Part shown: in pieces, positions 8,826 to 23,354 of the stretch
How the letters are laid out: every line of letters starts with the position of its first letter
Numbering within the stretch: the first letter of the stretch is position 1
Assembly: GCF_027923765.1 (NCBI RefSeq)
Contig: NZ_AP026709.1
Location: forward strand, 1,483,501-1,547,500
Length of the DNA stretch: 64,000 nucleotides
Direction: 5' to 3'
Source of the DNA: Pseudodesulfovibrio nedwellii
Lineage (GTDB): Bacteria; Desulfobacterota; Desulfovibrionia; Desulfovibrionales; Desulfovibrionaceae
Position numbers and translations under genes: made by a program
The notes under the pieces: model-generated
What the model was told of the DNA's origin: nothing
The model's input: the letters and a program-made list of their open reading frames with translations, nothing else
Databases searched by the model: none

Positions 8826-10265
8826 TTAATCAGCCTTGATACGGAATGTGGTATTTTCCGGCGGAGTGACGGCCTTCTCCTTGGGCTGCTTCAACTGGGG
8901 AACATAGTCATACGGTACACGCATGGCACGATAAACCAGATTGTAATTACCCTTCTTGGTGTAATACGGGCTGATATATTCCCAAACAATTTCGTGATCC
9001 GGGGTCACTTCTTGGAACTGACCGACTGCGCCGTTAGTAATCATCGTGTTGCCATTGGGCAAACGCTGTGCAGAGGACACGTAATCGGAATAGAACTGAT
9101 ACTTGTTACGCATACCCATCTGCTTGGCGGAATGTTCCCACACGATTTTCAGAGTACGAGGATCGAACTCGATAACGCGGGAATAGTCACGACGAGCATT
9201 TGACCAGCCATAAGGGGCACCGGGGTTGCGCGGGCCGTAACCAGCATAACCGCCATTGTCGTAAACCATGATGTTACCTTCACCCGGCAATCCCTTGGGA
9301 ATCATGTGGGTGTGGTGCTGACCAATGATCTGGCCGAGCTTCTTGTAGGCCTTCTTGTACTTCTTGCCGTTGAATTCCCAGACGGAATCCTTGTAATAAT
9401 AGGGACCAATCTGCCAAACGAGCTTGCCCGTCTTCTTGTCGATGATGCAGGACGTGTTGGTCTGCCGGTTGGAAATAATGATATTATCCGGGTTGAACAT
9501 GGAATACGTCTTCGGATCTTCATCGTACCACTTGTTGGGGCCGAGATAGGAAGCCGCGTTGACATGAATCCAGTCGCCACCCTTCTTGCCCGGAGTACGG
9601 GTCATGGAGAAAGTGGGGTACTTGCGCAGAGTCTTCTTGAATTCCGGGGGGAAATTCATTTCGTCAAAATGGTCGGAAGCGAGCCATTCCCAAATGATCT
9701 TGCCGTTCTTATCCACTTCCACGATATAATCGTCGTACAATTCTTTTTTCGTAATCTTATCATTGTGTACGAACTTGTGGGACAAAATCAACATCTTGCC
9801 CTTACGGTTGTCCACAGGCATGCCGGGAGCGTGGTAGCCGACCGGATTGCCTTCGAACTGGTAATCATGGTGCATACCAGCACGGGGAATCTTGCGAACG
9901 ACCTTTTCATTCCAATCCACAACCACGAGGTCAGTCGAAGATTCGTCGCCCCAAGTCCGACCCTTTTTCTCAGGCGAAGGACGCTTGGCACCAGCCAGAT
10001 AGCCACCCTTCAACAACTTGGGAGGATGCTCTGCCTGACAAATATCCGTCCACTGTTTGACCACGTTACCGTTCATGTCGATAAGCACGGTGCCTTCAGC
10101 TTCAACTTCGGTACCGAACACGGTAAAGCCATTCCAGCACTTCGAAGGCTTATAAATGGTCGTGCCATGAGGAAATACGGTGGGAAAGCTCATGGCCTCC
10201 ATGGGATTGACCAACGCGGTGGCGGCAAGAGCTGCGCACCCGGTCAAAAACTGACGTCTTTTCAT
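8826..10265 (-). CDS. Arylsulfotransferase (ASST) family protein, paralogue 2, Tat-type leader
   Basis: 479 residues. Unlike the other three copies, its leader is MKRRQFLTGCAALAATALV: a twin-arginine RRxFL motif overlapping a possible lipobox (LTGC), so it may be Tat-exported and perhaps lipid-anchored. The propeller body keeps DWIHVN, GQHHTHM and YSRVIEFD and is closest to paralogue 1 (both have a YLGPN(R/K)WYD insertion). The gene is preceded by a sigma-54-like site (10338-10353) and followed by the HhH gene. Function as an aryl-sulfate sulfotransferase follows from the family; the substrate and any cofactor that would need Tat export are not evident. Confidence 0.85.
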   Translation of the reverse strand: MKRRQFLTGCAALAATALVNPMEAMSFPTVFPHGTTIYKPSKCWNGFTVFGTEVEAEGTVLIDMNGNVVKQWTDICQAEHPPKLLKGGYLAGAKRPSPEKKGRTWGDESSTDLVVVDWNEKVVRKIPRAGMHHDYQFEGNPVGYHAPGMPVDNRKGKMLILSHKFVHNDKITKKELYDDYIVEVDKNGKIIWEWLASDHFDEMNFPPEFKKTLRKYPTFSMTRTPGKKGGDWIHVNAASYLGPNKWYDEDPKTYSMFNPDNIIISNRQTNTSCIIDKKTGKLVWQIGPYYYKDSVWEFNGKKYKKAYKKLGQIIGQHHTHMIPKGLPGEGNIMVYDNGGYAGYGPRNPGAPYGWSNARRDYSRVIEFDPRTLKIVWEHSAKQMGMRNKYQFYSDYVSSAQRLPNGNTMITNGAVGQFQEVTPDHEIVWEYISPYYTKKGNYNLVYRAMRVPYDYVPQLKQPKEKAVTPPENTTFRIKAD

Positions 10266-10530: not shown

Positions 10531-12012
10531 CTAGTATGCATGCATGGCAGGGCCATCCTCTTCTTCGGTATCATCATTTTCATTAGCGAATCCTTCGCTT
10601 GTTCCACCGTCAAGGATTGCACCACGCTTATAGTCTTTGTAAAAACGCGGACAGTCATCGCCACAAATATATCCCTGCGGAGTCATATCCTTACCCTTGA
10701 AGGCAGGATAATCCTTGCTGTAACGATAAGCGCGATGAATGTAGTTGTTTGCGATATCATACGGGGTCATCCCTTTCTTGGCCGTATATTTTTTGCTTTC
10801 ATCAAACATACAATGCGCTTCTTCACCGAATATGGGATTCACAAATTCCCAAACAACCTTGGGATTCTTGCCGCCAGTTACTTCGATCAGATGTCCCTGA
10901 CCGGTTGAAGTGATAAAAGTATTACCATTTTCCAAGCGTTGTGCGCCACCTTGGTACATGGAATAAAAACTGTTAGTCAGCTTACTTGTATACTCCCAAA
11001 CAACTTTGCCGGTTTTGGGATCCATTTCCACTGCGCGGGAACGGTTTCCTTCAGGACGATACCAACCATTGTCAAAAATCAAAAAATGACCATTTTGCAA
11101 CCAAGTAACATGGTGATTACCAAACAGTTGTTGATCACCGTTATCGATAAAGGCAGGGGCCTTTCCGGCATCATGTGTACTCGGATTACCCCATCGGTAT
11201 TCGATTTTTCCAGTCTTACGATCAATTACGTAAAATTCACCAAAGTTACGAGAATTCAGGACAATTTTTTTACCGTCTGGAGATACATCAACGGAGTTGC
11301 AATGCGTCCAATCAACAACGTCCATTAATTCGACGATGTTACGATCACCCCTGAGATACCAGTTGATATCAATCTTATCCGGTCCGGTTCCAATATGGTC
11401 CCAAATATGCCATTCCCAAACAACCTTGCCATTCTGATCAACCTCTTGGACATAATCAGCCCAAGTGTACTTGAATTGCATCCCCCACAGCTTCAAACCG
11501 CCCTTGGGCATAGCCTTGGGATCACGGCCTTTTGCAATGGCTTCTTCATTCGTTTTTCTTTCCCAGCACAACACAAGAGTATTGCCGTTAGGAAGTCTGC
11601 GAAAAGAATGATGCTGAAGAGACGTATCGCTAAAATTCTTATACTTCCATACGAGTTTGCCATCCCAATCAAACTCTTCCAAAAGCCCACCCTCTCCGCC
11701 GAAACCGACAGTGGCAGGCTTATCCAGATGGCTAGCTCGAAGCAGATGCCCATTGGGAAGCAACTGGGAGTGGGCTCCGGCTTTAAACTTGTGCTTCCAC
11801 GTATGAACAATATTGCCTTCCATATCTATCAGATAAGTAGACGTTCCCATGCCAGGATCAAATAGTGTATACCCTTCAAGAGCCTTGCCTTCTTCATACT
11901 TCAAAACACCGGTGGGCCCGGTCAATGCCTCATAAGCCTGTGCCGGAACAGCCAACACAACTGCTAACAGCGCGGCCAGTGCAAATGTGTAAAAATTGGA
12001 TTGCTTGCGCAT
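10531..12012 (-). CDS. Arylsulfotransferase (ASST) family protein, paralogue 3
   Basis: 493 residues with a Sec leader (MRKQSNFYTFALAALLAVVL..AQA). Propeller motifs include IDMEGNIVHTWKH, DWTHCNSV, FGNHHVTWL and SRAVEMDP. A C-terminal segment with CGDDCPRFYKDYKRGA contains a CxxxC pair, and the tail is acidic, ending EEDGPAMHAY. It is a tandem duplicate of the gene at 12246-13760: leader, CGDDCPRF segment and last seven codons are nearly identical, even at DNA level around the stop codon. It has its own sigma-54-like promoter and terminator, so it is a monocistronic unit. Sulfotransfer activity is a family-level assignment. Confidence 0.87.
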   Translation of the reverse strand: MRKQSNFYTFALAALLAVVLAVPAQAYEALTGPTGVLKYEEGKALEGYTLFDPGMGTSTYLIDMEGNIVHTWKHKFKAGAHSQLLPNGHLLRASHLDKPATVGFGGEGGLLEEFDWDGKLVWKYKNFSDTSLQHHSFRRLPNGNTLVLCWERKTNEEAIAKGRDPKAMPKGGLKLWGMQFKYTWADYVQEVDQNGKVVWEWHIWDHIGTGPDKIDINWYLRGDRNIVELMDVVDWTHCNSVDVSPDGKKIVLNSRNFGEFYVIDRKTGKIEYRWGNPSTHDAGKAPAFIDNGDQQLFGNHHVTWLQNGHFLIFDNGWYRPEGNRSRAVEMDPKTGKVVWEYTSKLTNSFYSMYQGGAQRLENGNTFITSTGQGHLIEVTGGKNPKVVWEFVNPIFGEEAHCMFDESKKYTAKKGMTPYDIANNYIHRAYRYSKDYPAFKGKDMTPQGYICGDDCPRFYKDYKRGAILDGGTSEGFANENDDTEEEDGPAMHAY

Positions 12013-12245: not shown

Positions 12246-13760
12246 CTAGTATGCATGCATGGCGGGGCCATCTTCTTCCATGCTGTCGTCTTCCTCATCA
12301 GCGTATTCGTCTGTATCGCCGCCTAAGGTTGCACCCTTTTTAAAGTCACGGAAAAAACGCGGACAATCATCGCCACAAACATATTCTTGTGGAGTAAGGT
12401 CTCTCCCTTTCAGACCAGGGTAGTCCGGGCCGTAACGGAACGCACGATGAATCATGCCCCACATGGAATCATCATGACCATCATAGATAGCATCTTCGTC
12501 ACCCAATACGCACTTAGCCTTACCAAAGACGAAGGGATTAACAAATTCCCACACGATTTTCTTATCGTTTGTTACTTCCATGACGTGACCACCATGGGTG
12601 GAACAAATCAAGGTGTTGCCATTGGGCAGACGCTGCACTCCACCCTGACGATGAGAGGAAAAGCTGTTGCTGTGCTGTGTATGAAATTCCCAAACGACCT
12701 TACTCGTCTTAGGATTGACTTCAACTGCACGAGAAAGTCGCTTCTCCGGTGCTTCAGAACCGTTATCAAAAAGGAGAACGTTACCATTCTCCAATGGAAC
12801 CGCGCAATGCTGGCCCCATATTTTCTGATCGCCATTGTTGTACCAACTTGGCTTTTGGGCCTTGGGATTCCAAGCGGTATCGTTACCCCAGCGATACTCA
12901 ATTTCACCGGTCTTGTGATTAACAAAATAAAACTCGGACAAGTTACGGGAGTTCAACACGATGGTATCAGTTTCCGGGATATAACTGACCGTATTGAAAT
13001 GAGACCAATCGTATGATGAATAAATGGAACCAACCGGTTTCGGAAGAACATAATTAAAATCGAGTTTTTTTGGTCCCTTACCCATATGATCGGCTGTATG
13101 CCATTCCCAGACAGTCTTTCCTTTGGAATCAACTTCACGAACGAAATCATTCCAAAAACCTTCATGACTAGCCCCTTGATACACAACAGGCTCGGAAGGG
13201 ATAGTCTTGGGATCACGACCCTTTTTTATGGCCTCTTCCTTGGTCATGTATTCCCAGCCAAGGATCAGGGTGTTGCCATTGGGCATACGATGGAAAGTAT
13301 GGTGATGGATCTCCTTGTACGGCTCGGCCATCTCATATTCCCAAACGACATTGCCGTCCCAGTCGATTTCTTGAACGATGCCACAAGCACCTCCAACACC
13401 GACATATTTTTTGAGATCTTTTTTACCCAGTTTCTTCCCATATTTCTTCTCCAGCTGCTTCTGCTGATTGACACGTCCACCACGAAGAAGATTTCCATTA
13501 GGCAACAGCTCAGCATACAAACCAGGACCTGTTTCGCAATCCCACGTGTGAACAATATTACCTTCCATATCAATCAGGTAAGTAGTCTTGCTCCCAACTT
13601 GGGGCGAAAACAGGGTATAACCTTCGTAGGCTTTTCCTTTTTCATATTTCAGGACGCCGGTGGGTCCTGTAGCAGCCTCATAAGCCTGTGCCGGTACAGT
13701 GAGCACAACCGCCAGCATAGCGGCCAGTGCAAATGTGTAAAAATAGGATTGCTTGCGCAT
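12246..13760 (-). CDS. Arylsulfotransferase (ASST) family protein, paralogue 4
   Basis: 504 residues, Sec leader almost identical to paralogue 3. It keeps IDMEGNIVHTWDC, DWSHFNTV, SRAVEVNP and the C-terminal CGDDCPRFFRDFKKGA and EEDGPAMHAY segments. At the position of HHTHM/HHVTW of the other copies it has WGQHCAVP, so one of the paired His residues is Cys; this may alter activity or metal binding. An extra Lys-rich insertion (about 100-120, LEKKYGKKLGKKDLKKY) is absent from paralogue 3. A sigma-54-like promoter lies at 13803-13818 and its own terminator at 12189-12215. The upstream neighbour is the response regulator at 13941. Confidence 0.87.
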   Translation of the reverse strand: MRKQSYFYTFALAAMLAVVLTVPAQAYEAATGPTGVLKYEKGKAYEGYTLFSPQVGSKTTYLIDMEGNIVHTWDCETGPGLYAELLPNGNLLRGGRVNQQKQLEKKYGKKLGKKDLKKYVGVGGACGIVQEIDWDGNVVWEYEMAEPYKEIHHHTFHRMPNGNTLILGWEYMTKEEAIKKGRDPKTIPSEPVVYQGASHEGFWNDFVREVDSKGKTVWEWHTADHMGKGPKKLDFNYVLPKPVGSIYSSYDWSHFNTVSYIPETDTIVLNSRNLSEFYFVNHKTGEIEYRWGNDTAWNPKAQKPSWYNNGDQKIWGQHCAVPLENGNVLLFDNGSEAPEKRLSRAVEVNPKTSKVVWEFHTQHSNSFSSHRQGGVQRLPNGNTLICSTHGGHVMEVTNDKKIVWEFVNPFVFGKAKCVLGDEDAIYDGHDDSMWGMIHRAFRYGPDYPGLKGRDLTPQEYVCGDDCPRFFRDFKKGATLGGDTDEYADEEDDSMEEDGPAMHAY

Positions 13761-13940: not shown

Positions 13941-15296
13941 TCAAAGATTATAGGTATCGATTTTATCGTAGAGCGTCCGCCGACCAATGCCGAGGATCTT
14001 GGCAGCCTTGGAACGGTTGCCTTCTGCAACGGCGAGAGCCTGCCGAATAGCGGAAATTTCAGCCTTTTCAACGGCACTTTTCAACTCAACTGGCTGACTA
14101 GGATTTTCGTACTTGTTTTGAGCACATGTTCTCGCATTGGTACACAAGGAATCAAGCGTAATGATATTATCGTCTGAAAGCAGCACAGCACGCTCAATAA
14201 CATTCTCCAGCTCACGAATATTCCCCTTCCACGGTGAATCCATAAGCATTTGTAAAGCACTCGGAGACAATTCTGTAACATCCTTGTTGTACCGGGTGTT
14301 GAACTTGCGCACAAAGTGATCGACAAACAACAGAAGATCATCCTGTCGTTCTCGCAAAGGAGGCAATCGCAACGGGATAACAGCCAAACGGTAATAAAGA
14401 TCCTTACGGAACTCGCCTGTTTCCACCCCTTCGTCCAGGTTCCGACTCGTGGCAGAAAGAAAACGAACATCGATATTGATAGGAGTGTTGCCACCCACTG
14501 GCTTAATCTCCAGCTCCTGAATTGCCCGAAGGAGTTTCACCTGCGTAGACGGTGACAGTTCACCTATTTCATCCAGAAAAATCGTGCCACCCTGCGCTTC
14601 TTCAAGCAGACCGCGTTTGGCGCGCGTTGCCCCGGTGAAGGCTCCCTTAACATGACCAAACAACTCACTTTCCAACAGATTTTCAGTGAGCGCACCGCAA
14701 TCAATAGTGAAAAAAGGTTTGTCTGCACGAGAACTTGCCAAATGAATCCGCTTGGCAAACATGGACTTGCCAGTACCGGTCTCGCCCTGAATGAGTATGG
14801 GGGCATCTGAACCAGACACCTTATCCACAGTGTTCATCATCTGCTGGATAACCGCGTTGTTGCCAATGACCATGGCACCTGTCTGATCATCTTCTTCCTG
14901 GGCATTGAAAGATTCCAGTTTGCGATGCAACTCACCGTGTTCGATGGCCCGGCGGGCGAGTAAAGCCAACTCCTGAGTCTTAAACGGCTTGGTAATATAA
15001 TGGTAGGCACCAAGCTTGATGGCATCCACCGCCGTCTCAATAGACCCCGCTCCGGTCATAATTATAAAGGGCAAAATGCTATCAATAGTCCGCACCTGCT
15101 TGAGCAATTCAAGTCCGCCCATAGGCTCCATGGCAAGATCACTGACAATCAGATCATACATGGTTTCAGAGAGAGCCTTCCACGCTTCCTCACCGGACGA
15201 AGCTGTATGCACCACATATCCCTGACGGCTCAAAGATCGCTTCAGGATGGAAAGCAATTCCTGTTCATCATCTACGAGCAGTATTTTATGAAGCAT
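13941..15296 (-). CDS. NtrC-family sigma-54-dependent response regulator, second copy
   Basis: 451 residues, same architecture as the regulator at 5066. The receiver has D9/D10, D53 (VSDLAMEP) and the KPFK lysine. AAA+ has GETGTGKS, intact GAFTGA and [11 protein letters not shown]. The Fis-type HTH has NRSKAAKILGIGRRTLYDKI. It starts inside the 3' end of the kinase gene (11-nt overlap), so the pair is coupled. The recognition helix differs from the first copy only slightly (GRRTLYDKI against GRTTLYEKI), so both may bind the same enhancer sites. It sits directly upstream of sulfotransferase 4 in the same direction and probably activates the -24/-12 promoters of this locus. Confidence 0.93.
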   Translation of the reverse strand: MLHKILLVDDEQELLSILKRSLSRQGYVVHTASSGEEAWKALSETMYDLIVSDLAMEPMGGLELLKQVRTIDSILPFIIMTGAGSIETAVDAIKLGAYHYITKPFKTQELALLARRAIEHGELHRKLESFNAQEEDDQTGAMVIGNNAVIQQMMNTVDKVSGSDAPILIQGETGTGKSMFAKRIHLASSRADKPFFTIDCGALTENLLESELFGHVKGAFTGATRAKRGLLEEAQGGTIFLDEIGELSPSTQVKLLRAIQELEIKPVGGNTPINIDVRFLSATSRNLDEGVETGEFRKDLYYRLAVIPLRLPPLRERQDDLLLFVDHFVRKFNTRYNKDVTELSPSALQMLMDSPWKGNIRELENVIERAVLLSDDNIITLDSLCTNARTCAQNKYENPSQPVELKSAVEKAEISAIRQALAVAEGNRSKAAKILGIGRRTLYDKIDTYNL

Positions 15297-17238
15297 CAGT
15301 CTTATCCTTATGTCGATATGCGGGAAATTCCAAAATCATACGAGTGCCGTCCCCAGCTTCCGACTCAGCGAAGATCAAGCCGTCATGACGCTCAACCATA
15401 CGACGGGTAATAAACAGGCCCAAACCGAACCCGCCCTTGCGAGAAGTAAAAAAAGGCTCAAAAATACGTGGCAAATTCTTACGAGGAATTCCTTTCCCCT
15501 CATCTTTGACCTCCAGTCGCACAGTCTGAAGATCATGTTCTCCCTGCCGCCAAACCAAAATCTCAATAAACCCAACCCCGTCCATACTCGCCAAGGAATT
15601 AAACAGCAGATTCACTATAACCTGTTGCAAGACACGATTATCGCCTCGAATAAAGAGAGGGCCGTCCTCCACACGCACTTCAATTCTGCTCTTTTTCGCC
15701 TTGGGACCAAGCAGGGAAAGCGACTCATAAATCATGTCGCCTACATTGATTTTTTTCAAAGAAATGGGTTTAGGGGAAGCCGCTTCAAGCAGGCCTTTGG
15801 TTATCTCACCCGCACGGATGGCATTCCGCTGAATGGCAGACAATCCTTCCTTCACATCCTTGTCAACATTAGCTTCACACAAAAGCTCTTCGGCGTTGGC
15901 CTGAATAATGCCCAACGGGTTGTTGACTTCATGGGCTATACTTGCCGCCATCTTCCCGATAATTCCAAGTCGCTCAGATTGAATGAGTTCCTCTTCCATA
16001 CGATTACGTTCCATCACATTTCGCGCAAAGAGACAGGCAAGGAGCTCTGTATGCAACGGCCCCTGTATAACGCGACCGGCAATCTCCACTTCCATCGGGT
16101 TGCCTGACACACTCTGCATGCTGAATTCATGCTTGTCGCACCCGTCATTAAAAACTTTGGTCAAAAACGCCGCGATTTCATCAACATCATCAGGGACCAT
16201 GATCTGCCCAAGATTCACAATATCATCCTGATCCGGAAACAAAAGAAATGATTGAGCGCGCTCGTTGGCGTGCAAGATATCGCCAGCCTCGTTGACCAAA
16301 AAAATCACATCCGGGGAAGACTCGATCAAATCACGATACCGTTGTTCTGTCCGACGTAAATCGCTGGCAGCTTTGTCCACTCGACGTTTGAGCGAAACAT
16401 TCCACAAAACAATACCGATAAAAATCAAGCCGACTATCGCCACAGCAATGGCAATATGTTTGGCATAGTAAGTGAGGCCGTCCCTTCGCGAATGCTCACC
16501 AAACCATTTATCTCGCAATTGAGCCAAATGTCCGGTTTCCCGCAAGTGCCGCACGGCAGACATCAGGTCAGCGGCAAACTGCCTGTCGTGCCGAGAAACA
16601 GACAGTCCAAGAGGCACTTCACCCAAGACCTTCCCTTTTTTCTCGATATTCGAAAAACCATTCTGATCGATCAGGTAATCCGCCACCCTCTCGGACGGCG
16701 CCACAAAAATTTCAACAACACCCTGATCAAGCATACTCAAGGCTTCAAGCGGAGAGGTCACTCTGATCACATCATCGCCGAACTCGACTTCCGGGCTATA
16801 GGGAGCCCCGGTAATAGCCACCACACGCTTGCCAGCGAGTTTATTTGAATTATTAACCACTGGACTCTTCGTGTTGACGAAAAGATGATTACGCAGACTG
16901 TATCCCAGCGGAATAAAAACAAATGAAGAACGGGAAGATGGACGTGATCCGTGTGCCATGAGGTCAAGTTGCCCGTCTGCATACATGCGAGGGTAGTCAA
17001 CCAGACTATCTACAAGGACAAATTCGATATCCGCATCAAGCAGTTCACCAAGCAAAACCCATTCATCGATGGAATAACCACGAACCCCTTGTTCGCCATC
17101 CTGCATGGCAAGAAACGAAAATGGTGGAGATATAGCCCGAATACCAACTTTGCAAGTCTCACGACACCACGCATTGCCAGCGGAAAAGAAAAGAACAAAC
17201 GCCATAAGAATCAGGCTGAGGTAAACGGAGCGTCGCAT
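15286..17238 (-). CDS. Sensor histidine kinase with solute-binding-protein and PAS domains, second copy
   Basis: 650 residues from the ATG at 17238, chosen because a Sec leader (MRRSVYLSLILMAFVLFFSA) begins there; the open frame continues 55 codons further upstream without a plausible start. The SBP_bac_3-type domain ends in LRDKWFGE. A transmembrane helix lies at about 262-284, PAS at about 300-405 (LIESSPDVIFLV), HisKA has His436 (SIAHEVNNPLG), and HATPase_c has DEGKGI, FEPFFTS and GFGLGLF motifs. It is paralogous to the kinase at 3129-5066; the binding domains have diverged most, which suggests different but related ligands. It is encoded at the end of the long minus-strand gene set that begins at 23354. 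Confidence 0.9.
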   Translation of the reverse strand: MRRSVYLSLILMAFVLFFSAGNAWCRETCKVGIRAISPPFSFLAMQDGEQGVRGYSIDEWVLLGELLDADIEFVLVDSLVDYPRMYADGQLDLMAHGSRPSSRSSFVFIPLGYSLRNHLFVNTKSPVVNNSNKLAGKRVVAITGAPYSPEVEFGDDVIRVTSPLEALSMLDQGVVEIFVAPSERVADYLIDQNGFSNIEKKGKVLGEVPLGLSVSRHDRQFAADLMSAVRHLRETGHLAQLRDKWFGEHSRRDGLTYYAKHIAIAVAIVGLIFIGIVLWNVSLKRRVDKAASDLRRTEQRYRDLIESSPDVIFLVNEAGDILHANERAQSFLLFPDQDDIVNLGQIMVPDDVDEIAAFLTKVFNDGCDKHEFSMQSVSGNPMEVEIAGRVIQGPLHTELLACLFARNVMERNRMEEELIQSERLGIIGKMAASIAHEVNNPLGIIQANAEELLCEANVDKDVKEGLSAIQRNAIRAGEITKGLLEAASPKPISLKKINVGDMIYESLSLLGPKAKKSRIEVRVEDGPLFIRGDNRVLQQVIVNLLFNSLASMDGVGFIEILVWRQGEHDLQTVRLEVKDEGKGIPRKNLPRIFEPFFTSRKGGFGLGLFITRRMVERHDGLIFAESEAGDGTRMILEFPAYRHKDKTDAS

Positions 17239-17309
17239 GCCGGTCCCATAACGCAAAGAGCCACTATGCACCAGCCCGTACAACGTCCATTTCCCAAAAA
17301 CAGGGACTG

Positions 17310-17333
17310 CCCCCGGCATGTCTATGCCGGGGG
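17310..17333 (-). other. Hairpin between the DUF1573 gene and the kinase gene
   Basis: A 10-bp perfect stem (CCCCCGGCAT and its complement) with a 4-nt loop. On the minus strand a TTTTT run comes only about 9 nt later, so it may be a weak terminator or attenuator that lowers kinase/regulator expression relative to the upstream genes. Confidence 0.6.
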
Positions 17334-17386
17334 AAATCTCAGGGAGGAGGTATGATGAATTTATACTATTCATCTGGTTATGATAA

Positions 17387-18085
17387 CTATTTGGTCTCGC
17401 CAATCAACACGGCTTTGTACCCTTTTCCTATGTCATTTCTGGCATCGGAATACACCATGATGATATCCATGAACCGGCCGAGCTTGTTTGGTGTGACTAA
17501 AAACTCAATGGGTGCGGTCTGCCCGGCTTCGAGTTTCAGTGCGCCCTGCCAGTAAGTCGTCTTGAACTTGCGCGACTTGACGGCCGTCACGGTCATAGAG
17601 GCGTCACCAGAATTCTTGATCATGATTTTAGTCGGAGTAGCCTTGCCATTGACCAAACCTTCCACCGTGGTCTTGCGCGGGGTTACAACCATAACACCCA
17701 TAGGGATCGGATCGACATAACCGACGATATGAATGGTCTGTTGGCTTTCCTTGCCTTCACCCGTGCTGACCGTCACGGTCTTGTCGAATTTACCAGGATA
17801 CTTGAACGTGTTGTAGCTGATGACCATTTCAACAGATTCACCAGGATTGATGCTGCTCTGTCCCAGAGCAGTTGTGGTGCAACTTCACGACGTCGTCACG
17901 TTCTTAATCGTGACAACCTCCTTGCTGACATTGGTGAGCATCACCGTTTTGCTGGCAACAGGCCCTTCGATCATGGAACCGAAATCAACCTTCATATCAC
18001 TGATGGAAACGGGCTGGGCCGCCATTGCCGAAGAGGCAAACAGCAAACCAAGCACCAGAGCCATAAGCTGAATTTTCTTGAACAT
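17387..18085 (-). CDS. DUF1573 periplasmic protein, probable selenoprotein (in-frame UGA = Sec67)
   Basis: One reading frame of 233 codons from the ATG at 18085 to TAG at 17389-17387, interrupted by a single TGA at 17887-17885. Residues 1-22 are a Sec leader (MFKKIQLMALVLGLLFASSA). The DUF1573 pattern continues without a break across the TGA: VDFGSMIEGPVASKTVMLTN, then NVTTS-U-SCTTTALG, then INPGESVEMVI and YPGKFDKTVTV. DUF1573 proteins carry a conserved SCGCT motif here; this gene has S-U-S-C-T, so the UGA replaces the first Cys. A SECIS-like hairpin follows (separate entry). It sits between the tetrahaem cytochrome (9-nt gap) and the kinase. A thiol/selenol redox role in the periplasm is inferred. 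The alternative is a pseudogene by nonsense mutation, with the C-terminal half reinitiating at 17827. Confidence 0.8.
17839..17887 (-). promoter_or_regulatory. UGA codon with SECIS-like element
   Basis: After the UGA (17887-17885) come 13 nt and then CTGCTCTG-GGA-CAGAGCAG, an 8-bp perfect stem (17871-17853). The loop begins with GG, 21 nt after the UGA. Bacterial SECIS models ask for a loop G and a 16-37 nt distance. CACCA (17879-17875) can pair with TGGTG (17843-17839) to form a lower stem. Confidence 0.72.
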
Positions 18086-18094
18086 AGTGAGTCC

Positions 18095-18553
18095 TTACTT
18101 TTTCCCGTGAACGAACCGGGATTTCAAACTGTAGTCAAAGTTCTTGTCCTGCCCTTCGGTATGACAGGTGCGACAATTATCCTCACCGGGCTTCCCGATA
18201 ATATCCTTGGGGTCCTCGGACTCGGTATGAGCCAACCCCGGACCATGGCAGGATTCACACTGAACATCCTTGAGTTCAGGGGTCAGTTCAATGTCAATGA
18301 AGCCGCCGTCCGCATCCATTGCCACCACGTGACATTGGACACATCCCTGCACCTGTTGCTTTTCCTCGCCCTGCTCCTTGAGGGTCTCGAAAGCGTGCGC
18401 ATGCGGGGTCGTCTTCCACCCCTCCACGATCTCAGCGTGGCAGTCCGCACACGCTGTGTACCCCACGTAATCGCCAAAAATTTCGGCATTGGCAGCCGAA
18501 ACCAGCGACAAGACAAAGAAAATGGCAACGATGCTGAGCACAAGGCGATTCAT
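18095..18553 (-). CDS. Periplasmic tetrahaem cytochrome c (c554-like)
   Basis: 152 residues with a Sec leader (MNRLVLSIVAIFFVLSLVSA). There are four CxxCH haem sites: CADCH, CVQCH, CESCH and CRTCH. Spacing and the YVGYTACADCHAEIVEGWKTTPHAHAF start match the cytochrome c554-like multihaem family (multihaem electron carriers or nitrite/hydroxylamine-type cytochromes). It is exported and matured in the periplasm, where it could carry electrons to or from the neighbouring DUF1573 selenoprotein. It is 9 nt from both neighbours, so part of the operon. Its redox partner outside this locus is not known. Confidence 0.9.
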   Translation of the reverse strand: MNRLVLSIVAIFFVLSLVSAANAEIFGDYVGYTACADCHAEIVEGWKTTPHAHAFETLKEQGEEKQQVQGCVQCHVVAMDADGGFIDIELTPELKDVQCESCHGPGLAHTESEDPKDIIGKPGEDNCRTCHTEGQDKNFDYSLKSRFVHGKK

Positions 18554-18562
18554 GATATATCC

Positions 18563-18859
18563 CTAACAGTTACAAGATGATGCAGGTTCCAAGAACAAGA
18601 ACTTGCTCAGTTTACGCAATAAGGTGGAATCAATGCCGTCCACATCAAGCAATTCATCCATATCCACGAACTCTTCATTTTCAGTACGCAACTCGATAAT
18701 TGCCTCGGCCATGGGCTGATCAATGCCGTCGATGGCAACCAACTGCTCCACGGTTGCGGTATTAAGATTAAGCTTGCCATCATTGTCACCGGCAAAAGCG
18801 GGAACAGAGGCTATGGCAATGGTCAACAGAAGGGTCAATGCGATGATGATATTTTTCAT
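18563..18859 (-). CDS. Periplasmic helix-hairpin-helix (ComEA-like) small protein 2
   Basis: 98 residues from the ATG at 18859; AGGAG is 7 nt before it, while the ATG at 18865 is too close to that site. A Sec leader (MKNIIIALTLLLTIAIAS) is followed by the HhH pattern LNLNTATVEQLVAIDGIDQP and FVDMDELLDVDGI. The tail ends SSCNC, a CxC pair at the very C-terminus, where the paralogue at 8417 ends SKC. Small exported HhH proteins are usually linked to DNA uptake, but all neighbours here are redox or sulfo-transfer proteins. The acidic surface (many D/E) also argues against DNA binding. Confidence 0.85.
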   Translation of the reverse strand: MKNIIIALTLLLTIAIASVPAFAGDNDGKLNLNTATVEQLVAIDGIDQPMAEAIIELRTENEEFVDMDELLDVDGIDSTLLRKLSKFLFLEPASSCNC

Positions 18860-18876
18860 TTTCATACTCCTAAAGA

Positions 18877-19080
18877 TTACCAGCCGAGATAGTGATGGCT
18901 GTACAAAACGGACCAGACCAGACAGGAAACAGTTCCGCTGACTATTCCGGAAAACACTTTTTTTGCGAATGATGTGGTGCCCCTATGAGCCTTAAACGCG
19001 CCCATATACAAGGCTGCGGAAGACATAAGGACCAACAAAACAGCGACCAATGGCAGAATGACGTAGTAGATGCCATGCAT
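18877..19080 (-). CDS. Small membrane protein of unknown function
   Basis: 67 residues with two predicted membrane helices (about 5-28, YVILPLVAVLLVLMSSAALY, and about 42-60, FSGIVSGTVSCLVWSVLYS) and a basic loop between them. GGAGGG lies 8 nt before the ATG. It is 11-12 nt from each neighbour, inside the operon that also encodes the cytochrome and the permease. I recognise no family. By position it could be a small subunit of a membrane complex formed with the 50-residue protein next to it or with the UPF0324 permease. Confidence 0.75.
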   Translation of the reverse strand: MHGIYYVILPLVAVLLVLMSSAALYMGAFKAHRGTTSFAKKVFSGIVSGTVSCLVWSVLYSHHYLGW

Positions 19081-19092
19081 TGTGAAGCCCTC

Positions 19093-19245
19093 CTAGAGCA
19101 TACCCATGTATTGGCTGATGGTGATAATGGCCATAATTGCCAAGGCAAAGATCACGCCGAGGCTATCCCGGTCCTGTTCTTCCTGTCCTTTATTGTCCAT
19201 GTAATTGAACCCGGTTTCATCAGTGGTGTGCATATGTCTTTTCAT
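19093..19245 (-). CDS. 50-residue single-span membrane protein
   Basis: The ATG at 19245 is chosen because AAGGAG sits 8 nt upstream; an earlier in-frame start lacks a binding site. A polar, His- and Asp-rich N-terminus (MKRHMHTTDETGFNYMDNKG) precedes one helix (LGVIFALAIMAIITISQYMG). It lies 11 nt after the permease and 12 nt before the next small membrane protein, so it belongs to the operon. No family recognised. Confidence 0.75.
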   Translation of the reverse strand: MKRHMHTTDETGFNYMDNKGQEEQDRDSLGVIFALAIMAIITISQYMGML

Positions 19246-19256
19246 TGTCAGACTCC

Positions 19257-20417
19257 TTAGGCCGGAAGCAGGCCGGTTTTGACGCAAAGCAGGATCACTG
19301 CCAACAACAGCGCGATACGAATGAATCCGGCAATACAGGTGACCAAAAATCCTTTGAAGCCATGCTCACCTATGTCACGGAAGGAAAGGGAAAGCCCAAG
19401 AGCACCCGCTGCCAGCGAGAAATCCCACTTGACCATTTCAAAAATGGCATGATGTGCAGGCTCCTTAAAGACATGCAGGCAGGCCAGCACCCAGAAGAAA
19501 ATGAACACGCCAAGCCACAACGGGAAAGTCTTGATGCCACGGGTGGCACGGACTTCCTCATTATTCCTGTTCCGCAATTTGCGAATGAACATGACGATGA
19601 ACACATACAGAAAACCAGCGGGCATAATCACATGGCGGCCAACATCAAACCAGCTTGCCCAACGCCCAGCCTCGTAACTGTTGCCAAAGGCGGCATAAAG
19701 GCCTTGTGTGCCGTTACCGACACCGACAACGGATGCCAGCCCAAAATACTTGGCCGGAATACCGACCAGATCACCCAGAACTGGCAGAAGCTGCATGGCA
19801 ATTAGGCCAAAGACAATGACACAGACAAAGGCATTGACGACCTGACCACCCTTGGCCTTGATCAGCGGCATGAGAATGGCACAGACATGGGGGTCGCCAG
19901 TGGACAGGCCACCCGCGATAATGGAACCATGCCGGTCATCCAACTTGAGCAGTCGGGAGACCCCCAATGTCACAGAGGCCGTGACAAACAGGGAACCGGT
20001 GCAAATCAAGATGGGGATCAGGCCTATCTTGAAAGCATGACCGATCATGAAATGAGGGGCCAGCATGATGATACCCAACGGCATCAACATATGAATGTAG
20101 GACAGACCGCGTTTCCAACTATCCGGCACACCAAAGATGTTCCCAATAAGCAAACCAAGCAGCAGCGGATTCCAGACGAAGTTGGAGTTCAGTATCTGAA
20201 AAAAAGGCTGATGGTTCAGCGGACCGATAACTCCGTCAAGCCATGCAAACAGATTCTGGAGCGTGAACGGATTCGGCACGCCCGCCAAATTGTTACTGAA
20301 GATGGCGACAAAGAACATTGCCAGCAGACCGGGCAGCACTTCCTTGAGGCTGTAAAGCGAACTGAACCAGGATTTCCTGTTCAGATCGTAGTTCAATGTT
20401 GCACTCGAAGTATTCAT
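19257..20417 (-). CDS. UPF0324 (YeiH-type) putative sulfate exporter
   Basis: 386 residues from the ATG at 20417 (AGGA 6 nt upstream; an ATG at 20429 has no site). About ten hydrophobic segments are visible. The central region (SIIAGGLSTGDPHVCAILMPLIKAK and KYFGLASVVGVGNGTQGLYAAFG) matches the pattern of UPF0324/Cons_hypoth698 membrane proteins, some of which are proposed sulfate exporters in sulfonate degradation. Next to four arylsulfotransferases, export of sulfate or sulfite from the cytoplasm or exchange of a sulfated compound is a reasonable idea, not shown. It lies 30 nt after the 968-residue gene. Confidence 0.75.
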   Translation of the reverse strand: MNTSSATLNYDLNRKSWFSSLYSLKEVLPGLLAMFFVAIFSNNLAGVPNPFTLQNLFAWLDGVIGPLNHQPFFQILNSNFVWNPLLLGLLIGNIFGVPDSWKRGLSYIHMLMPLGIIMLAPHFMIGHAFKIGLIPILICTGSLFVTASVTLGVSRLLKLDDRHGSIIAGGLSTGDPHVCAILMPLIKAKGGQVVNAFVCVIVFGLIAMQLLPVLGDLVGIPAKYFGLASVVGVGNGTQGLYAAFGNSYEAGRWASWFDVGRHVIMPAGFLYVFIVMFIRKLRNRNNEEVRATRGIKTFPLWLGVFIFFWVLACLHVFKEPAHHAIFEMVKWDFSLAAGALGLSLSFRDIGEHGFKGFLVTCIAGFIRIALLLAVILLCVKTGLLPA

Positions 20418-20447
20418 TGTATTCCTCATATTTCTTATAAATAGCCG

Positions 20448-23354
20448 CTAGCGACGGATATGGGCGGAACCGCCGGTATTCACCGAGCCACTCAACTTTT
20501 CATATGGAGCATGCTGTCCGATACGCCAGTAATCCTTGAAGGCGAGACGGGGCAGCATTGAAAGGCGCAGGAAACCTTCGATAGTCCCGTTAACTCCCAC
20601 CAGCACGTCGACGTTGTTCCTCGGACGGAAGGCAAGATTCTCAGTGGAATAGTGCTTTTTCCTGTACTCGGTCTCGATGTGCCATGCGTGAACCATTTCA
20701 CCGTCAAAGCTATCCACCACAATCGTAAACAACGGTTTACCATTCTCATCACGAGGGCCTTCGTAGACAGGATGTTCCTTGTCCAGAATGATAGTCTCAG
20801 GGTTGTCCAAAAGGACTTCGTTGAGCTGATAGCAGTGACCACAAACGTCAGGGCGAACCATGAAGCGTGGATCATGTTCGAATGGTGTGTCTCGCTCCAA
20901 TTCCTGAATGTCCGTAAAGAAGTAGAGATTGACCTTGCCGTCCTTGAAGGGCTTTTTCACATCCAGTTCGGCCATGACGGAACCATATTTGAGCTGCATG
21001 GTCTGGGCGACATCCTGATGCTGTGGCAGCAATTCTTTGGCGGCGGCGTTCAGCGGGCCAAGAATTTTGGAATCAACGTGATTGCCCTTGGCATCAAACA
21101 GGGTCAGGCCAACGGTTCCGGCGGTGGCATCAAAACTGTTGAGCTTCAATGTAAACTTCCCAAGCTTTGCCGTTTCTCCGACAGCCAGAGAATGCCCTTT
21201 CGGCTTGTTGAAAGAGTAGCTGATGGCCTGAATAGACGGCGTGCCGAATTCCTTGATCTTCACGTAATTGGAACCGATGTACTCCGGTACAATGTAGGTA
21301 GCTCCTTCCGAAAAGACTTCTGGCATATAGTAGCGATTGCCCGCTTTTTCATCTTCATTGAAACCTTGCGCAAGGTAGAAATGTGCGCCCCAACGGTTAC
21401 CGGAATATTTCATAAGAGAAAGCGAGGCCACAGGACGGTCATCCAGATAAGTATGGCCGGTATACCGAAGTGCCTTGTTGCGCACGCCGAGCATCTCATC
21501 CTGCCAGTACATCAGGTTACCGTCGCCCATCGGCTGGTTCTTCCAGAAATCCAAATCCAAATTTTTACGGACAAACGTACCGGAGGTAAATGTCGCCAGA
21601 TAGGCACGCTTGCCGAGCAAAAAGAAAGACTCGCCTGCCAGCGTGCGGATATTTCGCGCATTGCGGGAGGTGTAGCAGAGGCCAGCAGGCGGAATGACGA
21701 TACGATTATTCTTGTAATCAACATAGCTGCCGCGAATGACGATGGCCTCGGCGGACAACAATTTTTCCCGTTTACGATTACGCGAGGTCTTGCGCATCAA
21801 CCCTTTGAGGCGAGGCACAAAGGGCGCGGTGTGATCCGGCTCGTAAAAGGAAGAGTTGGGCACAATCTTGGGGTAGGAAGTAAAACGGGATTCCTCGACC
21901 ACGGTGCCGTATGAAGAATCGGCAAGACGTGTAAGAAAACTACCTTCGATCATCGGTTCAAGGACCGGAGAAGAACCAAGAAAGAAATCGAGGTTAGTAC
22001 GCCCTTCGTCAGCCCACATAACCATATTATCCGTCCGCATCATATAATAGTCGCGAACATACAGATTACGGACCACGTCGCCTTCAAATTTGTTGGCAAC
22101 TACTTTGAACGCGGGACGATTCCAAATTTCAGAATATTTCACAGGTCCGTCAAAGCTGTCGTTGTCGTTGTCAAAAACCAACACGTCATTGTTCTCAATG
22201 AGCAAACGCTGCAACATCCCTGTCTTGAGATTCGGCTCAAGCACAACAGAATACCGAGAATCCAAAGGCCAGTCCTGACCGTTTTTCACGGTAACGAGAT
22301 CACGATAAACAACAAAGGAAAAATGGCCGGTTGAATATCCATGAGACTTGCTGGTGGCCCAAGGCACAAAGTCGGAATCCTTGAGAAAACTTGGATCCAT
22401 GACAATCTCAACACGCATATCCAACTCGGGAATCGTCAGGTTGTACTTGTCCTTTTCCCCCATCCGTGACTTGTATTCCTGTGCAGACGTCGGCTTGACC
22501 AATTTCTCAGCCAACACTTCGCTCCCGGTAAAGTCAGTGACCTTCACCATGAAGCCGTCAGGCTGACGGTAAGCGTAAATGCGCTTGTCGCCGTAGAAAC
22601 GATAATCTTCCTGACGCACTTCCAAAATAATGGGACGCTGCATGGAAAATGTCGCGTCCGTAATTTCAGGGAATTCAATGGACTCAAACACGGCATCGTC
22701 AAAATCGATCTTGCTTGCCACATACTTGCTGGCACCAAAATAATAGGTGTTATCCAGATAGAAATTCTCCAACTGCGAGTTCAATCCTTCCTTGAGAGAG
22801 AGTTTACGAACTTCTTCACGTCCGGGGAACACAGTTGAAATAGGAAATTCAAGCGGCCATCCACCAGACGGAGACATCACAGCCAGTTCAGCATACGGCT
22901 TTTCATAATGGTCCGTGGAATAATCGAACCAGAGACGATAGCCGGTGTCGCCCAATGGCTTTCGGTCGCCCTTCTTGAGAGCAAAATCCTTGAAGACTCG
23001 CTTGGTGGAGTTTAAATCAACAAGATACGCGTGTTCGCCCAACACCAAAAATGGGTCGCGCATGAAAGGACGAGCATCGTGGGATGTTTCGGAAAGATAG
23101 AACAACCCGCCGGGTTGAACTGTGGCTTTGCCATCCTTGATCTCGCTGCCGCGCATGATGATGGCTTCGGACAAATGTTTTTTCTGTCCGTACTGGTTCT
23201 TGAAAACCTTGTTTCTCAAGCCTGCCAAGTGCGGCAAAAAAGTCATATCCGCTGCCGGGGACAACCCGTGCGGATCGTTGGCGGCCAAACCTACTGTAGG
23301 TATGGCAAAAAGGATCGCCAACGCGATGGCCAGAAGTCGTACTGTGTTTTTCAT
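20448..23354 (-). CDS. Large exported protein of unknown function with internal duplication
   Basis: 968 residues with a Sec leader (MKNTVRLLAIALAILFAIPT). I recognise no family. Two halves share a module: about 40-150 (FLPHLAGLRNKVFKNQYGQK.., AIIMRGSEI, GGLFYLSE, FLVLGEHAYLVDL, PLGDTGYRLW) and about 520-625 (FVPRLKGLMRKTSRNRKREK.., AIVIRGSYV, AGLCYTSR, FFLLGKRAYLATF, PMGDGNLMYW). A late PDVCGHCYQL holds a CxxC of the kind seen in PDI-like oxidoreductases but is not a haem site. The body is rich in beta-type and aromatic stretches, consistent with a periplasmic or surface protein. It is the first gene of the operon, behind a sigma-54-like promoter. It may be the large subunit of whatever complex the cytochrome and DUF1573 protein serve. 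Confidence 0.8.
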   Translation of the reverse strand: MKNTVRLLAIALAILFAIPTVGLAANDPHGLSPAADMTFLPHLAGLRNKVFKNQYGQKKHLSEAIIMRGSEIKDGKATVQPGGLFYLSETSHDARPFMRDPFLVLGEHAYLVDLNSTKRVFKDFALKKGDRKPLGDTGYRLWFDYSTDHYEKPYAELAVMSPSGGWPLEFPISTVFPGREEVRKLSLKEGLNSQLENFYLDNTYYFGASKYVASKIDFDDAVFESIEFPEITDATFSMQRPIILEVRQEDYRFYGDKRIYAYRQPDGFMVKVTDFTGSEVLAEKLVKPTSAQEYKSRMGEKDKYNLTIPELDMRVEIVMDPSFLKDSDFVPWATSKSHGYSTGHFSFVVYRDLVTVKNGQDWPLDSRYSVVLEPNLKTGMLQRLLIENNDVLVFDNDNDSFDGPVKYSEIWNRPAFKVVANKFEGDVVRNLYVRDYYMMRTDNMVMWADEGRTNLDFFLGSSPVLEPMIEGSFLTRLADSSYGTVVEESRFTSYPKIVPNSSFYEPDHTAPFVPRLKGLMRKTSRNRKREKLLSAEAIVIRGSYVDYKNNRIVIPPAGLCYTSRNARNIRTLAGESFFLLGKRAYLATFTSGTFVRKNLDLDFWKNQPMGDGNLMYWQDEMLGVRNKALRYTGHTYLDDRPVASLSLMKYSGNRWGAHFYLAQGFNEDEKAGNRYYMPEVFSEGATYIVPEYIGSNYVKIKEFGTPSIQAISYSFNKPKGHSLAVGETAKLGKFTLKLNSFDATAGTVGLTLFDAKGNHVDSKILGPLNAAAKELLPQHQDVAQTMQLKYGSVMAELDVKKPFKDGKVNLYFFTDIQELERDTPFEHDPRFMVRPDVCGHCYQLNEVLLDNPETIILDKEHPVYEGPRDENGKPLFTIVVDSFDGEMVHAWHIETEYRKKHYSTENLAFRPRNNVDVLVGVNGTIEGFLRLSMLPRLAFKDYWRIGQHAPYEKLSGSVNTGGSAHIRR

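Follow-up and report, generated by a model that had tools for sequence, protein, structure and literature searches.

A DUF1573 gene with a very likely selenocysteine codon in a conserved tetrahaem cytochrome block of Pseudodesulfovibrio nedwellii

Introduction

Selenocysteine (Sec, U) has been reported before in proteins of the DUF1573 family. A 2008 paper (PMC2398784) gives OS_HP2, assigned to pfam07610, with a UxC motif and two sequences; a 2022 paper (PMC9312934) gives DUF1573 with UGC, attributed there to Zhang and Gladyshev 2007; and a 2026 paper (PMC13188914) tabulates Sec-containing DUF1573 with the motif UGC. In the available portions of two other papers, DUF1573 is merely named in a table (PMC10434189) or the terms pfam07610 and PF07610 are absent (PMC12013277). 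A sequence-only reading of the DNA studied here was not aware that a DUF1573 protein with Sec had ever been described, a statement that has to be withdrawn in view of OS_HP2 and the available text of PMC2398784, PMC9312934, and PMC13188914. The same portions of these three papers give no role for Sec-DUF1573 and nothing on a gene block or on tandem Sec/Cys pairs.

Here, we describe a DUF1573 gene from a stretch of 64,000 nucleotides of Pseudodesulfovibrio nedwellii, called the window below. OS_HP2 (pfam07610 and NCBIfam NF041425; from an Olavius algarvensis symbiont) is likewise a DUF1573 protein with Sec in UxC. Against the OS_HP2 model NF041425 the window protein scores 52.7 bits, below the cut-off of 100, and we therefore treat it as a separate clade within a selenoprotein family that is already known. 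Its motif is U-S-C (U-A-C in relatives) rather than the U-G-C of OS_HP2, and it falls within the broader UxC as that motif stands in the available text of PMC2398784. Unlike OS_HP2, the window gene sits in a distinct conserved cytochrome block. This setting of Sec-DUF1573 is what is new: the block is conserved in all 13 gene-bearing genomes in which the neighborhood was read, and its partners are fixed.

Another described system touches the neighboring cytochrome. The C-terminal part of the UshA-like (seleno)protein NF041198 is its best NCBIfam match (120.9 bits, cut-off 275), and on what is available of that description a similar cytochrome domain is thus tied to a CxU selenoprotein elsewhere; NF041198 has, by name, a different main domain and is without DUF1573. 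Table 1 lists the features discussed.

Table 1. Positions of the DUF1573 gene, its elements, and its neighbors in the window
Feature	Position	Strand	Remarks
DUF1573 protein gene	17387..18085	-	232 codons + stop, UGA very likely Sec at codon 67; signal-like residues 1-22, then two Ig-like domains
In-frame TGA, codon 67, Cys position of S-C-x-C-T	17885..17887	-	UGA in 10 distinct genes, Cys in 6
SECIS hairpin (predicted)	17853..17871	-	8-bp stem, loop GGA, loop 21 nt after UGA
Tetrahaem cytochrome c554-type protein, four CXXCH	18095..18553	-	directly upstream of DUF1573 gene; fused to DUF1573 in P0070
Helix-hairpin-helix (HHH; ComEA-like) protein, signal-like N-terminus, C-N-C end	18563..18865	-	CNC in 13/13 block copies
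67-residue small membrane protein	18877..19080	-	own reading; similar small proteins in L012, L086, L087
35-residue hydrophobic small reading frame	19093..19200	-	own reading
YeiH-like membrane transporter	19257..20429	-	PF03601 88 bits; TIGR00698 40.8 bits, below cut-off
968-residue CGHC protein, signal-like N-terminus	20448..23354	-	no Pfam/NCBIfam family above cut-off
Sensor histidine kinase with family-3 solute-binding domain	15286..17403	-	listed TTG start overlaps DUF1573 stop
NtrC-type response regulator	13941..15296	-	NCBIfam matches below cut-off
Arylsulfotransferase-family protein ASST3	12246..13760	-	
Arylsulfotransferase-family protein ASST2	10531..12012	-	
Arylsulfotransferase-family protein ASST1	8826..10265	-	

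The Gene and the Selenocysteine Machinery

The DUF1573 gene is one frame of 233 codons with a sole TGA in the context T-T-S-U-S-C-T. The sequence-only reading had already seen this frame, without naming a strand, and had claimed family similarity without a gap on both sides of the TGA; both points stand, and the gene lies on the minus strand. With C written for U, the protein scores 81.5 bits against Pfam DUF1573 (PF07610; gathering cut-off 26.1) and is by that score a member of the family. The match runs unbroken from residue 28 to residue 124, across codon 67, and is the single PF07610 match in the whole genome. A second Ig-like part follows the PF07610 region, and residues 1-22, by our own reading, resemble a signal peptide.

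The machinery that reads UGA as Sec is present. A genome search recovered tRNA-Sec at 78.7 bits (cut-off 47), selB at 398.6, selA at 612.5, and selD at 340.6 bits, so that the selA, selB, and selC genes asked for by the earlier reading are all in the genome, with selD in addition. With a full Sec system present, we rejected the idea that UGA is read as Trp in this genome. An in-frame UGA, similarity on both sides of it, and homologues with Cys at the site are the marks by which a selenoprotein gene is recognized, and the DUF1573 gene shows them all.

As a side observation, selD (G000:C1:2702383-2703312) itself holds an in-frame TGA and is probably a selenoprotein gene too, judging by its sequence.

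Exchange of UGA and Cys Among Relatives

Among 288 genomes of the family, 11 gave 13 orthologue matches, seven with one TGA and six with none; in two genomes (G253 and G244) a UGA gene and its Cys counterpart lie in tandem. Scanning named genomes added four loci (L010-L013), of which L010 and L011 repeat G227 and G245 and were counted once. The other two come from an Acidobacteria MAG (L012, SUAC) and a Desulfoluna MAG (L013, SUSC), each with UGA. Sampling 395 genomes from the phylum brought one more UGA gene, in G333. In all, UGA stands in 10 distinct genes and Cys in six, which answers the call for a check of orthologues at this codon.

More widely, one TGA was present in 14 of the 65 match rows of the phylum sample. 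The site was read in 29 loci besides that of the window; apart from G333 and G599, four of these show U, three of them as U-G-C, and the U-G-C genes (G660, G418, and G662) are only distant matches. Cys 69 is invariant in 57 aligned DUF1573 sequences.

Protein databases gave 163 relatives, of which 120 are listed. The site is covered by 74 of those listed, with Cys in 71 and Trp in three; the three Trp entries are likely UGA codons read as Trp by a gene caller. Of the 46 listed relatives in which the site is absent, 44 start at reference positions 72-106, that is, 5-39 residues past it, as expected of Sec genes truncated by annotation, and the aligner set the other two at position 1. P0064, the 146-residue fragment from the window itself, is among the late-starting entries.

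A tree of 67 rows was built from 16 locus genes and 51 of the 74 site-covering database proteins, truncated Sec forms not included. With 13 rows scored as Sec (the three Trp rows among them) and 54 as Cys, at least six changes between Sec and Cys are required, five of them forced by well-supported branches. The four Pseudodesulfovibrio genomes that have the Cys form only all contain tRNA-Sec. The Sec system was therefore not dropped there, and Sec is therefore not essential to the role of DUF1573.

Two observations concern single relatives. G333, 98% complete in about 350 contigs, holds the UGA gene and selB; tRNA-Sec was not found in it at E <= 1e-8, which suggests a missing contig or a divergent tRNA-Sec. 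P0006 is a homologue of 335 residues with two DUF1573-like units, just one of which has kept S-C-A-C-T.

The part of the gene 3' of the UGA has dN/dS values of about 0.11, 0.12, and 0.19 against G252, G237, and G254, respectively, and shows zero differences from G227; judged from these comparisons it is under purifying selection. The stretch from the UGA to the next ATG is also conserved among the aligned UGA genes. Low dN/dS and a conserved UGA-to-ATG stretch together indicate that selection sees translation past the UGA.

These data bear directly on the possibility that the UGA is an ordinary stop, the gene being a pseudogene or translation simply ending there, and that a 146-codon frame, starting with the ATG at 17827, is translated on its own or not at all. 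Databases do hold 146-residue fragments of this kind, P0064 for example. Such a fragment would, however, be without the signal-like N-terminus, and neither the conserved stretch ahead of the ATG nor dN/dS of 0.11-0.19 after the UGA fits an ordinary stop. Nor does the recurrence of the same UGA in 10 distinct genes, those of the Acidobacteria and Desulfoluna MAGs included, nine of them with a rule-conforming hairpin. We consider a plain stop very improbable.

Separately, the gene is a mosaic. It matches G227 at all 495 nt after the UGA and differs from it at 17 of the 198 nt before; with G252 the reverse holds, the 198 nt before the UGA being identical and the part after it differing at about 69 sites. 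On this pattern, recombination close to the UGA is a likely cause.

The Hairpin Downstream of the UGA

The hairpin, CTGCTCTG-GGA-CAGAGCAG, lies 13 nt past the UGA, with the stem beginning at nt 14 and the loop at nt 22-24. An 8-bp hairpin with GG in its loop had been noticed earlier at this spacing, and it is confirmed. We coded the published bacterial SECIS rule ourselves: a loop of 3-9 nt, a stem of 4-16 bp, G in the first two loop positions, a distance of 16-37 nt from the UGA, and MFE <= -7.5. The SECIS prediction that had been called for was thus made by rule, and the window hairpin conforms to it (8 bp, loop GGA, 21 nt, -10.9 kcal/mol).

How often would such a structure arise by chance? 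Synonymous recoding of the hairpin stretch (20,000 variants) produced a stem of at least 8 bp with a GG loop in 0.29% of cases; among 9,339 coding positions in genes of the window, 75 have one. We also searched the window on both strands for TGA codons flanked on either side by 25 or more open codons and accompanied by a rule-conforming hairpin. Of the eight candidates, only the DUF1573 site is clear of other genes; the second is simply where the RR451 gene normally ends, and each of the remaining six has at least 82% of its length within assigned genes.

The rule separates the two kinds of orthologue: nine of the 10 UGA genes conform, compared with none of the six Cys genes, and the chance level is seven of 83 Cys codons in 17 window genes. 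The exception is the UGA gene G253a, which has a broken pair and, at -5.0 kcal/mol, falls short of the energy limit. For covariation we aligned nine UGA sequences, leaving out G227, in which the stretch is identical to that of the window. Paired cells number 69 of 72 (95.8%), and changes on both sides of a pair occur in six stem cells spread over two pairs. The percentage paired, the number of two-sided cells, and the covariation score were each reached by none of 500 shuffles; the number of pairs with two-sided changes (two) is not unusual, being matched by 345 of the 500. By this comparison, the predicted SECIS stem shows compensatory changes. Folded as 60 nt, the DUF1573 hairpin stretch is no more stable than its own shuffles (z -0.67), and an Rfam search of the UGA stretch returned no SECIS family, with one chance match (E 1.2) to another family.

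Could the TGA have come from faulty sequencing, or from mutation of a Cys codon in this strain? Cys orthologues do exist, as such an origin would have it. The same TGA, however, recurs in one gene each of seven Pseudodesulfovibrio-type genomes and again in three further lineages, and the hairpin is absent from the six Cys genes. Independent genomes with the same TGA refute this explanation in practice, and we give it a negligible chance.

Sec decoding at codon 67 is thus very likely on sequence grounds. The central claim of the sequence-only reading, Sec in place of the family Cys, has held up through the UGA/Cys exchange, the rule-conforming SECIS element, and the presence of selA, selB, selC, and selD.

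The Conserved Gene Block

The block has the same order in all 13 gene-bearing genomes with the neighborhood read: 968-residue protein, YeiH-like transporter, HHH protein, tetrahaem cytochrome, and DUF1573. These are the window genome and 12 others; G333 and G599, with flanks of 1.5 kb, are outside the count. The histidine kinase and the NtrC-type regulator come next in 12 of the 13 (they are absent in L012), and arylsulfotransferase-family genes are near the block in all 13. Because the listed TTG start of the kinase overlaps the DUF1573 stop, its true start is probably further in.

Each of the five copies of the cytochrome that were read has four CXXCH motifs, and P0070 is a natural fusion of cytochrome c554 with DUF1573. 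The U-x-C pair had earlier been linked to this cytochrome as an active partner in the periplasm; what now speaks for that link is the gene order and this one fusion, and it stands to that extent.

Outside the genus, the 968-residue protein and the transporter are retained in G277 and in three genomes of genus g33 (G177, G193, and G179), and no cytochrome or DUF1573 match was found in the stretches read of these four. The cytochrome and DUF1573 are therefore not obligatory partners of the other block proteins. The stretch read of G277 includes a molybdopterin oxidoreductase gene.

The 968-Residue CGHC Protein and Its Short Relatives

Each of the 11 family genomes with the DUF1573 gene also encodes the 968-residue protein, which, short relatives included, is found in 29 of the 288. 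C838, H840, and C841 are invariant in 38 aligned rows, and CGHC is found in 118 of the 120 listed homologues. A Foldseek search of its model against the PDB gave no full-length match; the best match is 3u2g, an archaeal S-layer DUF1608 domain (E 1.5e-6), and it is partial, with a TM-score of 0.13 on the 968-residue query. By sequence, no solved chain matched better than E 0.89. The homologue P0124 scores 28.1 bits against the Pfam S-layer family PF07752, just under the cut-off of 30, and no S-layer Pfam match was found in the window protein, P0190, or P0241. The partial 3u2g match and the sub-threshold P0124 match are weak hints of an S-layer-like surface protein, by which an electron chain might end at the cell surface.

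Short relatives of about 490 residues match the C-terminal half of the 968-residue protein, and 14 of 16 rows have one TGA (for example L075, G190:C2:43113-44441). Ten were translated; in eight the TGA falls at the first Cys of CxxC (R-P-D/E-T-U-A/T-S/T-C), and two have Cys there. No family scored above cut-off for the three short relatives run against NCBIfam or the two run against Pfam, and none of the short UxxC relatives was recognized in the 119-family table of PMC13188914, in its available form. For this group, tRNA-Sec was found in 12 of 14 genomes; G190 and G189 are the two without.

The structural signal after these UGA codons is mixed. None of the eight short UxxC genes conforms to the strict SECIS rule, and a consensus of the downstream region folds weakly (-3.54 kcal/mol, covariation term +0.61). 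In six of the eight, the fold is more stable than those of 90% or more of the synonymous recodings. Shuffle z values are -0.91, -4.87, -2.77, -2.38, and -0.98 for five short UGA genes and +0.70 and +0.21 for two short Cys genes. The short relatives are likely a second selenoprotein family, one without a Pfam or NCBIfam model.

In G193 (L081:2466-7753) the short UxxC protein has a CNC-ending HHH protein on one side and, on the other, a molybdopterin oxidoreductase accompanied by a 4Fe-4S protein; neither HHH protein nor molybdopterin oxidoreductase was seen in the short-relative neighborhood of G190. The short UxxC relatives and their neighbors in G193 support a redox role for CGHC in the window block.

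Proposed Function

The AlphaFold2 model of the DUF1573 protein, with Cys replacing Sec, consists of two Ig-like domains (mean pLDDT 94.6), and U67-x-C69 is placed between the predicted strands 62-65 and 70-74. HYDIN/ASH-type Ig domains (CEP192 SPD-2, 2qsv) have the same fold as the model. These proteins are mostly eukaryotic scaffolds, and their full-length TM-scores against the model are low (0.30-0.40), we think because the angle between the domains differs.

Based on gene order, the P0070 fusion, and the Sec/Cys exchange, we propose, with reasonable but not high confidence, that the protein is an exported two-Ig-domain DUF1573 with Sec67, read with the help of the conserved SECIS-type hairpin, whose U-S-C forms a redox relay with the adjacent tetrahaem cytochrome. 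Export would follow from the signal-like N-terminus. U67-x-C69 would cycle between selenol-thiol and selenenylsulfide, and electrons would pass to or from the four haems of the cytochrome. The block proteins may form one extracytoplasmic chain, since two of the partners have Cys pairs of their own, CNC in the HHH protein and CGHC in the 968-residue protein.

It is also conceivable that Sec is inserted and the U-x-C loop carries no electrons, binding a metal or metalloid instead or making a structural selenenylsulfide. Soft metals can be bound by C-x-C pairs, and the best structure matches are the scaffold-like ASH/HYDIN Ig domains, not enzymes. UGA/Cys exchange beside a conserved Cys nevertheless fits redox work better, as do the fusion to a multihaem cytochrome and the further Cys pairs in the block, and we regard a metal-binding or structural loop as unlikely. 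For the redox relay, a sulfur compound as substrate is a guess that we ourselves doubt, suggested by the YeiH-like transporter, the arylsulfotransferase-family neighbors, and the host group.

Conclusions

Taken together, the block may encode a so far undescribed, selenium-dependent module for extracytoplasmic electron transfer, one that may extend to the cell surface. Sec-DUF1573, the CNC-tailed HHH protein, and the large S-layer-like CGHC protein would pass electrons between thiol/selenol pairs and the tetrahaem cytochrome, and the short UxxC relatives of the CGHC protein would be a second unlisted selenoprotein family, in G193 beside a molybdopterin oxidoreductase. This whole picture is tentative, and we place its chances somewhat short of even.

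Beyond this locus, the data show that annotation can hide Sec genes: 44 of the 120 listed DUF1573 relatives begin 5-39 residues past the site. The neighboring CGHC family also points to another family of selenoproteins, for which our scans gave neither a Pfam nor an NCBIfam model. For DUF1573 itself, the fixed partners, the tandem Sec/Cys pairs, and the cytochrome fusion make its function directly testable.
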